The notes under the pieces: generated by a model | What the model saw: only the letters and a program-made list of their open reading frames with translations | Told to the model about the DNA's origin: nothing | The model's database searches: none | Translations under genes and position numbers: made by a program | Assembly (NCBI GenBank): GCA_020341795.1 | Contig: CP070836.1 | Span: 1,150,769-1,208,651, forward strand | Direction of reading: 5' to 3' | DNA: 57,883 bases | Source: Thermoplasmatales archaeon | GTDB taxonomy: Archaea; Thermoplasmatota; E2; DHVEG-1 | In this document: one piece after another, positions 7,530 to 55,691 of the stretch | Layout: the number at the start of each line of letters is the position of its first letter | Numbering within the stretch: the first letter of the stretch is position 1

Positions 7530-8660
7530 ATGAAAGAAATTGGAATACTTGAAATATTTCATCACTGGGATTGTGTATATATTATTAGTAGAATATGCAA
7601 AACTAATAAGACCAATGTTACAATTTTTACTACATCCCATATATACTCGCAGTTAAAAATTGCTTTGGGTAAAAATATATCTGAATATAATTTCATAATT
7701 AAAAAAGAAAATGAAACTAAAAAATCGTTTCTAAAAAAAGTTAAAAAAATTTGTAATGAAAAAGTTGACTTACTTTTTATTATCACCATTCCTCATGATG
7801 TAAGACAATGGTCACAATTTTTAACATTTAAACCTAAAACAAATATTGTTTTGTTTATTCATGAGATAGAGAATTGGATTAAACCTAAGATTCTATTTGA
7901 TTTTAAGAATATACCAAAAACAATAAATAATAATTTAAAAGCAATTCTTAGAAAAATTATGCTACCAAGATTTATTGCAATTAATGTAATGTATCCTCCC
8001 ATGATGGATTACGTGAAAAATAATACAAATTATAGTAAAAAAGTATTTAACATGGGTTTTTTATGTGAAAATCCAGCTAAAAAAATTGATCCTAAAAAAA
8101 TTAGTTTCTTAATACATGGAAGAATCAAAGAAGAAAGGGGAGATTATAACTTGTTATTAGATGTTTTTGAAAAATTGTTTGAAAAACATGAAAATATTTC
8201 ATTAACATTACTTGGTTATCCAGTTGGAGATTATGGTAAAAAAATAATTGAAAAATGTAAGAAATTACGAAAAAAAGGATATAATATAAATTGGTTTGAA
8301 TCATTTATTGATTTAAAAGAATGGGAAGAATCATTTCGAAAAAGTAATATTGCAATTTGTCCGTTAAGTACAAAAATTATAACAATGGGCCAGTATATAA
8401 ATTCAGGTATTTTTTATGACGCATGTAGATATCCAACTCCTATTATAATCCCAAAAACTATGCCTATTTCTAAAAAAATAATAAGTTCAACAAAAACTTA
8501 TTCTGATATGAATGAACTTTTTTATATTTTGGATTATTATATAAAACATAAAAAAGAATTACAAGAATTTCAGAAAAAAGCTTTAGAAAACAGTACAAAA
8601 TTTTTTCTAGAAAAACTTAGAAATGAATTTTTAAATAATATAAAAGAACTTAATATTTAG
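7530..8660 (+). CDS. GT-B-fold glycosyltransferase, paralog of the gene at 3253
   Basis: This 376-residue protein is collinear with the product of 3253: EIGILEIFHHW at the N-terminus, TNVTIFTTSHIYS, KICNEKVDLLFI, and LLGYPVGDYGKKI in the C-terminal nucleotide-binding half. It differs most in the acceptor-facing N-terminal domain, as expected of duplicates that kept a donor but changed acceptor (inference). The ribosome site GGAAGGA lies 9 nt before the ATG. It has no close neighbour overlap. Confidence 0.7.
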   Translation: MKEIGILEIFHHWDCVYIISRICKTNKTNVTIFTTSHIYSQLKIALGKNISEYNFIIKKENETKKSFLKKVKKICNEKVDLLFIITIPHDVRQWSQFLTFKPKTNIVLFIHEIENWIKPKILFDFKNIPKTINNNLKAILRKIMLPRFIAINVMYPPMMDYVKNNTNYSKKVFNMGFLCENPAKKIDPKKISFLIHGRIKEERGDYNLLLDVFEKLFEKHENISLTLLGYPVGDYGKKIIEKCKKLRKKGYNINWFESFIDLKEWEESFRKSNIAICPLSTKIITMGQYINSGIFYDACRYPTPIIIPKTMPISKKIISSTKTYSDMNELFYILDYYIKHKKELQEFQKKALENSTKFFLEKLRNEFLNNIKELNI

Positions 8661-53433: not shown

Positions 53434-54081
53434 ATGAAAGATTGTAATATTGAATGTAAGTCAAATAAAGAAATAACTGCCTCTTATAGCATGAAGATTG
53501 TTATAATTATCACACTTATTTTAGCATTATGGCAACATCAATGAATCTGGGTTATAGGTATTATAATCGGTATTATAATAGGTTTAATACCAACTTTAAG
53601 ACATTTAGTTATTAAATTCACGCTTCCAGGGTCAATTGAATTACTAATACCTTCTGTTTTTGCATTAAACATAGGAGGTATTTTACTTAATGCTTATTAT
53701 TCGATTCCTGGAGATATCCTTATAACTCAGGTTTTATTTTCAGTTTTAGTTGTATTTTTTGCTTTTGTGATAATATACATCCTCCACATATATTGGGACG
53801 GGTTGATAATGGATAAATACGCCATGGCATTTGTTGTTGTAGTAACAACTATGTCTTGAGCAGTTATATTGGAATTTGTAAAATGGTTTCGAATTTTTAA
53901 AAGAAAACAAACATCAGTTGAAGGCGTTTTGATAAGCCTACTTGTTAGTACCATTAGTGGAATATTAATTACTTTACTAGGGGTAAGTATGATAAAAAAA
54001 GGTATATTTGATATATATATTGAAAAACTGGGAAAACAAATTGATTTACAGATAATTATAAGAAAAAGAAATAATGAATAA
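53434..54081 (+). pseudogene. Membrane-protein gene with two in-frame TGA codons
   Basis: One frame of 215 codons runs from ATG 53434 to TAA 54079 and is broken only by TGA at 53542 and 53857. The product has several hydrophobic helices (IWVIGIIIGIIIGLIPTL; VLFSVLVVFFAFVIIYIL; MAFVVVVTTM) and a basic tail. Both TGA codons sit where tryptophan would fit (HQ-x-IWVIG and TMS-x-AVILEF). The layout faintly recalls YjdF/DUF2238 proteins. Recent decay by TGG to TGA changes is the simplest reading. Other genes here stop at TGA, so a general code change is excluded. Confidence 0.65.
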
Positions 54082-54119: not shown

Positions 54120-55493
54120 ATGGTAAAAATGAGAGAAATAAGAAAATCATTTTTTAAACGACTCTATAAATATTTTCTAATCGTAATTGTTCTAATATCT
54201 TTTATATTTCCTGTAACCATTTCCCAGCCTTTAAAACACGTTAAACTTGTAAAAAATGAATCTTCTTTAAATATCGTTTTAGATTGTAATGATATTAATG
54301 GAATTATAAAACCATATGCAGAAATTAACTGTGGACCTAAACCTTTACAAAATGTTGAAAATAGTGTCGATCTTACCAAACAGTACCAAGAAATCGGAAT
54401 AACACATATACGAACTCATGATTTAGATAATACTATTTTTCCATGTGATATTAGCACCATTTTCCCTGATGAAAATGCTGACCCGTTGCTTGAATCAAGT
54501 TATGATTTTGATATAAGCGATTCATACATTACAGGAATTGTTAATGCAGGTTGTAAAGTTTTTTACCGTCTTGGAGAAAGTGCAGGTGGTCCAAATGATC
54601 CTCCAATAGATTTCAATAAATGGGCTGAAATATGCAAACATATTACAATGCACTACAATGACGGATGGAAAGATGGCTATCATTATAATATCAAATACTG
54701 GGAAATATGGAATGAGCCCGATCTCAAAGGTTTTTGGAATGGAACAGTAGACCAATATTATGATTTATACAAAATAACCGCAAATAAACTTAAAGATTAT
54801 AATTCATCATTGAAAATCGGTGGACCATGTACATCCTCTGTATATAATGAAAATTTTTCTATCAAATTTCTAGAGTTTGTAACAAATTACAATATACCTT
54901 TAGATTTTTATGCTTGGCACATGTATGCAGATAAACCTTACCAGTTATATGAAGCATCACAATTAGTTAGAAACATTCTTGATTATTTTGAGTTATTTAA
55001 TTGTGAAAATATAAATACTGAATGGAATATCAATATTTTAACACCTCAAAGAGACAAAGATAACTCAAAAAACGCTGCTTTTACCGCTTGTAGTTTAACT
55101 GCATTTCAAGATTCCTCCATGGACCTTGCTTTTAGATATCGTGGAACAGGTGATAACAATTGGTTAGGAAGGCTTATTGGTTTTGATTTAAGTCTTTTTA
55201 GCTATAATGGTGTTTATAAAAAACCTGCACTATCCTATCTTGCATTAAATTATTTATTAAAAGATTCACCAATTCGAATTAATACCCACAGTATGGATGC
55301 AGCTAATGGATTAACATATCTAGCAGGGATTTCTGATGATAAAACAAATATTTCTATTTTAATTAGTAATTTTGACGCTGCTAACACCGAGTACAATCTT
55401 GATATATTCAATCTTCCCTGGTCCGAAAACTATATTGTAGCTTATTATTTGATCGATGATAAAAATAATTTAGAAAAAATAGAAATTTTATAA
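54120..55493 (+). CDS. Exported GH39-like glycoside hydrolase, apparently truncated
   Basis: The protein has a signal anchor (residues 15-35) and a TIM barrel with the GH-A clan acid/base Glu199 in YWEIWNEPD and the nucleophile Glu301 in NINTEWNIN. The spacing and HMYADKP-like segment fit beta-xylosidase/iduronidase relatives (GH39). After the barrel a beta-sandwich begins, then TAA at 55491 ends the frame after 457 residues. The same frame stays open for 65 more codons. No ribosome site precedes the ATG at 54120 (or 54129), so the message may be leaderless. Confidence 0.78.
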   Translation: MVKMREIRKSFFKRLYKYFLIVIVLISFIFPVTISQPLKHVKLVKNESSLNIVLDCNDINGIIKPYAEINCGPKPLQNVENSVDLTKQYQEIGITHIRTHDLDNTIFPCDISTIFPDENADPLLESSYDFDISDSYITGIVNAGCKVFYRLGESAGGPNDPPIDFNKWAEICKHITMHYNDGWKDGYHYNIKYWEIWNEPDLKGFWNGTVDQYYDLYKITANKLKDYNSSLKIGGPCTSSVYNENFSIKFLEFVTNYNIPLDFYAWHMYADKPYQLYEASQLVRNILDYFELFNCENINTEWNINILTPQRDKDNSKNAAFTACSLTAFQDSSMDLAFRYRGTGDNNWLGRLIGFDLSLFSYNGVYKKPALSYLALNYLLKDSPIRINTHSMDAANGLTYLAGISDDKTNISILISNFDAANTEYNLDIFNLPWSENYIVAYYLIDDKNNLEKIEIL

Positions 55494-55691
55494 TCCTCTG
55501 AAATTGAGTATTCAGCTACAAAAATAATTATTAAAAATTCTGTTCAATTTATTAGAATTACAAATTCAAGTATTCTTCCTGATGAAGGATCAGAGACTAT
55601 GAAAATTCCATTTATTTTGCAGTTAAAATTTTTAGATCCTTTTACACGGTTACTAGCAATATTCATATTTCTGTTGATATTTGATATATAG
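55494..55691 (+). pseudogene. Severed C-terminal tail of the GH39-like gene
   Basis: Directly after the TAA, the same frame continues without a stop for 65 codons to TAG at 55689. It encodes beta-strand-like KIIIKNSVQFIRITNSS and ends in a hydrophobic anchor LLAIFIFLLIFDI. This is what a membrane-anchored glycosidase should end with. The TAA is therefore likely a nonsense mutation, for example of CAA, AAA or GAA. Confidence 0.55.

Follow-up and report, generated by a model that had tools for sequence, protein, structure and literature searches.

Several described systems bear on an open frame that is interrupted by nothing other than TGA codons. UGA is read as Trp in the Mycoplasmatales/Entomoplasmatales and in some insect endosymbionts (PMC8629427). 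In archaea, recoding has been reported as unequivocal for selenocysteine, pyrrolysine and one -1 frameshift only (PMC8037382). In-frame stops with low dN/dS are reported to be widespread in bacteria, where they may be read through (PMC7918605). Besides, codons such as TGG/UGG are preferred sources of the stops seen in pseudogenes (PMC8629427), and nonsense pseudogenes of prokaryotes have been described (PMC522871).

The locus presented here, a putative membrane-protein gene in a draft archaeal genome, resembles the UGA=Trp codes in the AT-richness of the genome and in that one TGA, that of codon 37, takes the place of a conserved Trp. It differs from them in that TGA is a normal stop in this genome, that the second site is not a Trp site and that no tRNA-Trp(UCA) was found. 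The likeness to prokaryotic nonsense pseudogenes is closer, namely a retained frame, intact homologs, few stops, the presence of paralogs and a patchy family. Compared with these (PMC522871), nothing is structurally different; what is unusual is the youth of the copy, the two stops being the sole disabling changes here. Of the readings weighed below, the most probable appears to be that the gene, a member of a dispensable family, became a pseudogene very recently and in this lineage only, with a probability of about 0.73. The stops would then be real in the living population and would abolish function.

The interrupted frame and the residues at its TGA codons

The window, i.e. the whole stretch of 57,883 nucleotides that was analysed, belongs to a 1.79-Mb draft archaeal MAG and contains near its 3' end a frame running from an ATG to a TAA at 54079-54081 (Table 1). 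As the initial annotation had described, this frame of 215 codons holds no internal stops other than two TGA, at codons 37 and 142. The expectation of many stops by chance was likewise borne out: in a Markov simulation built on the dinucleotide content of the window, stops made up 7.8% of the codons per frame, which amounts to ~17 over a length of 215 codons; as few as two stops, or fewer, occurred at none of the 599,353 positions simulated. Because the stops are far fewer than simulated, the frame can be taken as a gene or the remains of one.

Table 1. Features of the interrupted locus and of the gene downstream, in window positions.
Feature	Position	Strand	Evidence or remark
Membrane-protein gene, broken; family conserved in Thermoplasmatota	53434..54081	+	Frame, stops, homologs, predicted fold
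In-frame TGA, codon 37	53542..53544	+	TGG (Trp) in 7/7 intact orthologs; start of predicted helix 2
In-frame TGA, codon 142	53857..53859	+	Orthologs Ser/Thr/Ala, distant homologs mostly hydrophobic, Trp never; within predicted helix 5
Putative glycoside-hydrolase-like gene, cut by in-frame stop near its 3' end	54120..55493	+	58% identity to G026, homology through the stop
In-frame TAA truncating the putative glycoside-hydrolase-like gene	55491..55493	+	Homologous frame runs on, up to 65 codons, to TAG 55689-55691

Seven intact full-length orthologs, with 51-63% identity, were found in relatives, and neither stop is kept by any of them. The Trp that all seven have at codon 37 is also present in most distant homologs. 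Codon 142 is TCT, AGT, ACT or GCG in the seven orthologs and encodes Met, Val, Ile, Leu, Phe or Ala in distant homologs, with Trp absent there from every homolog examined. As in pseudogenes, the stops therefore stand at ordinary sense codons of relatives, i.e. TGG at codon 37 and TCT, AGT, ACT or GCG at codon 142. Cys was found at neither site in any homolog, on which ground recoding of UGA as selenocysteine was rejected.

Reading TGA as Trp would restore a conserved residue at codon 37 only and, by the same comparison, a single G-to-A change would account for the TGA at codon 37 and not for that at codon 142. The proposal that both sites suit Trp consequently holds for the first and fails for the second, where the lack of Trp in homologs is what the initial annotation itself had named as grounds for refuting TGA as Trp at both. 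Of its suggestion of recent decay by two G-to-A changes, recent decay is the best supported explanation and a G-to-A change is retained for codon 37, where the known bias of pseudogene stops towards UGG also fits, whereas codon 142 calls for another change.

Selection on the gene and decoding of TGA

Regarding selection, a codon model of the window copy and seven orthologs gave an omega of 0.10 on the branch of the window copy vs. 0.068 on the other branches (LRT 4.7, 1 d.f.), values that are approximate as dS is saturated. An omega of 1 on the window-copy branch was rejected (LRT 21.6), the length of this branch having reached its bound and dS being saturated here too. Of the 63 columns at which the other seven sequences agree without exception, the window copy departs at 11, vs. 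12/220 pooled over four orthologs of similar depth (Fisher p=0.007); the intact ortholog L034 departs at 9 of 61 such columns, and pooling it as well brings p to 0.03. Together, the omega values and these departures point to a gene that would have been functional through most of its history and on which constraint would have relaxed late or mildly.

Such low omega values are, taken alone, compatible with some readthrough, because the in-frame stops reported in bacteria show low dN/dS too (PMC7918605). Some full-length protein could come from readthrough of the TGA codons or from their decoding, depending on context, as Trp or by a near-cognate tRNA. This would also agree with a frame that is otherwise open, with purifying selection on most of the branch, with the Trp of the seven orthologs at codon 37 and with the bacterial in-frame stops that have been described as common and as subject to purifying selection (PMC7918605). 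Such readthrough is nevertheless disfavoured because the stops are not conserved and because of the residue at codon 142, and archaeal recoding is reported as established for no more than the three cases named at the outset (PMC8037382).

How TGA is used elsewhere in this genome bears on the same question, and the genome comparisons were made on stretches covering about half of it. In the first genome sample, TGA terminates 27 of 177 long ORFs, in line with the initial view that it is normally a stop. In-frame stops were surveyed over ~874 kb of the genome against the proteins of G001, G025 and G026, in a comparison that comprised 248 matches with 80,620 aligned residues. Within these alignments, TGA interrupts a frame nowhere except at the two codons of the membrane-protein gene. 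Every other in-frame stop is TAA or TAG; a number of them, situated in 5' extensions or in gapped regions, do not represent clear interruptions. Stops within good alignments affect a paralog of the membrane-protein gene (at a Leu site), IleRS and a small regulator (at Glu sites in both), and also the glycoside-hydrolase-like gene downstream; the non-TGA stops fall mostly in dispensable genes. No single amino acid fits the in-frame stop sites, a pattern that mutation or error would give and that speaks against readthrough. Of note, a codon-usage scan for further TGA-split genes returned mostly tandem genes sharing a frame.

On the side of the decoding machinery, none of the 28 tRNAs surveyed has a UCA anticodon, the intron-aware scan extending over ~1/4 of the genome only. 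The single tRNA-Trp found, of CCA anticodon (L057 8029-8172, plus strand), carries a 68-base intron in its anticodon loop, and no second locus similar to it was detected in the genome.

Recoding of TGA as Trp, the other option put forward for this frame, was rejected on the evidence of codon 142, of the lack of further interrupting TGA codons across the half of the genome sampled and of the role of TGA as a normal stop. The same evidence, together with tRNA-Trp(CCA) being the only type found, makes readthrough very unlikely; its low-level form, in which a near-cognate tRNA-Trp would insert at both sites and yield some full-length membrane protein, is slightly less probable still. If true, decoding of TGA as Trp would be a code change in an archaeon and as such notable; the evidence opposes it. 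An open frame and one conserved Trp site are insufficient to claim recoding, and it is the second site and the genome-wide survey that decide.

Possible assembly errors and other interrupted genes

It may also be considered that the gene is intact in the organism, one or both TGA codons being wrong base calls or reflecting a mixture of strains in a draft metagenome assembly. In favour of this explanation, the record is made of contigs chained by 100-N spacers, 78 such runs occurring within the "single contig" of the genome sample. The window is one contig of the chain, with N runs directly flanking both edges; gene order across the spacers in the G000 record should not be trusted. G026, likewise listed as one contig, looks like a pseudo-scaffold of the same type.

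Base-level consensus errors may indeed exist, as the IleRS gene (G000:C1:386933-390058; L191; L135 10058-6930, minus strand) is interrupted by an in-frame TAA where the 30 relatives checked have Glu. A single copy of this gene was found in the host genome and, since it should be essential, its TAA is probably a consensus error or a variant. A stop common to both genomes of the genus was ruled out, since G001 has GAA (Glu) at the G000 site. The IleRS gene of G001 has a TAA of its own (L223, G001:C140, near residue 778), which follows a short tandem duplication shifting the frame elsewhere in the gene; this duplication is probably an assembly artefact.

Against the error explanation, in-frame stops are rare: at 65% identity or more, that of IleRS is the only one in 29,423 residues, a count made without the paralog of the membrane family and without the stops in 5' extensions. 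At the rate that follows if the stop of IleRS is counted as an error, two stops in one gene of 215 codons would have a probability of ~3e-5, rising to 6e-4 at a rate ~5x higher. A single frameshift-like junction occurs in 80,620 residues, and wholesale sequencing error was rejected on the scarcity of both kinds of lesion in conserved genes. Moreover, conserved columns of the window copy have undergone sense changes as well, and the next gene is likewise interrupted. Error or strain mixture at one or both TGA codons is accordingly considered unlikely.

This next gene (54120-55691), which we take from its sequence to be glycoside-hydrolase-like, is intact in G026, and the homology beyond its TAA takes in a hydrophobic C-terminal segment. 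Its interruption suggests that decay may be local. Altogether, the pseudogene reading draws on the intact orthologs, on the residues at both sites, on TGA being an ordinary stop here, on the signs of earlier purifying selection and on the additional nonsense codons of the paralog and of the adjacent gene; counted against it are the TAA of IleRS, the nearly as frequent departures of L034 and the saturation of dS.

The membrane-protein family, its copies and its gene contexts

Homologs of the read-through protein occur in 39 of 99 genomes of the phylum, the host genome counted, and the relatives carrying it are mostly named Thermoplasmatota, Thermoplasmata or Thermoplasmatales MAGs; the distribution of the family among archaea is patchy. 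The protein is predicted to be a relative of a small polytopic membrane protein of six to seven helices. AlphaFold2, run on the family alignment, predicted seven long helices, its confidence being moderate (mean pLDDT of 77); codon 37 falls where helix 2 begins and codon 142 inside helix 5. A fold search of the PDB returned no significant match, the family profile found no sequence match there, and Pfam and NCBIfam gave nothing significant for the window protein. Among described families, DUF2238, of predicted membrane proteins (Pfam PF09997), is matched weakly by paralog B (E=6e-5) and by a homolog from G027 (E=2e-4), both under the curated cut-off (best relative 23.4 bits vs. 26.4). Neither the window copy nor the intact ortholog L031 matched it. 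As its relatives score under the cut-off, the family is not placed in DUF2238.

The position of the stops in the predicted fold bears on whether the frame could serve as two or three short proteins, i.e. fragments of 36, 104 and 73 codons made via internal re-initiation. A possible TTG start at 53869 would suit the last piece; yet each fragment would split one conserved membrane domain, which the intact homologs have as a single chain. The first stop leaves one predicted helix, and the second lies inside predicted helix 5. Separate short products are therefore considered highly improbable.

The host genome has four copies of the family, namely the window copy and three adjacent ones at 1.4753-1.4772 Mb. 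Among the latter, paralog A (L027 7949..7293, minus strand) has a single TAA, at 7583, where homologs have Leu, while paralogs B and C beside it are intact. For the pseudogene reading, the sequence of events would be that constraint relaxed on one of the four copies and that nonsense changes then turned the conserved Trp codon 37 and the small-residue codon 142 into TGA. Judging from the sequence, translation would be expected to end once the first predicted helix has been made, and no working protein would result. As a pseudogene, the locus would have little importance beyond its correct annotation.

In the relatives, the intact orthologs L028, L030 and L033 lie directly 3' of a presumed dihydropteroate-synthase-like gene, in a row that also comprises what we take to be folC-like and purN-like genes, all these names being read off the sequences. 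The neighbours of the orthologs L029 and L031/L032 are unlike those. In a distant homolog from another family of the class (L026 94-1347, minus strand), the membrane domain forms the N-terminal half of a longer protein, the C-terminal half of which matches TYW3 (E=1.5e-43), an enzyme of wybutosine synthesis. Such a fusion of a membrane domain to a tRNA-modification domain is odd, and a similar arrangement is seen in L022-L025, likewise from other families of the class.
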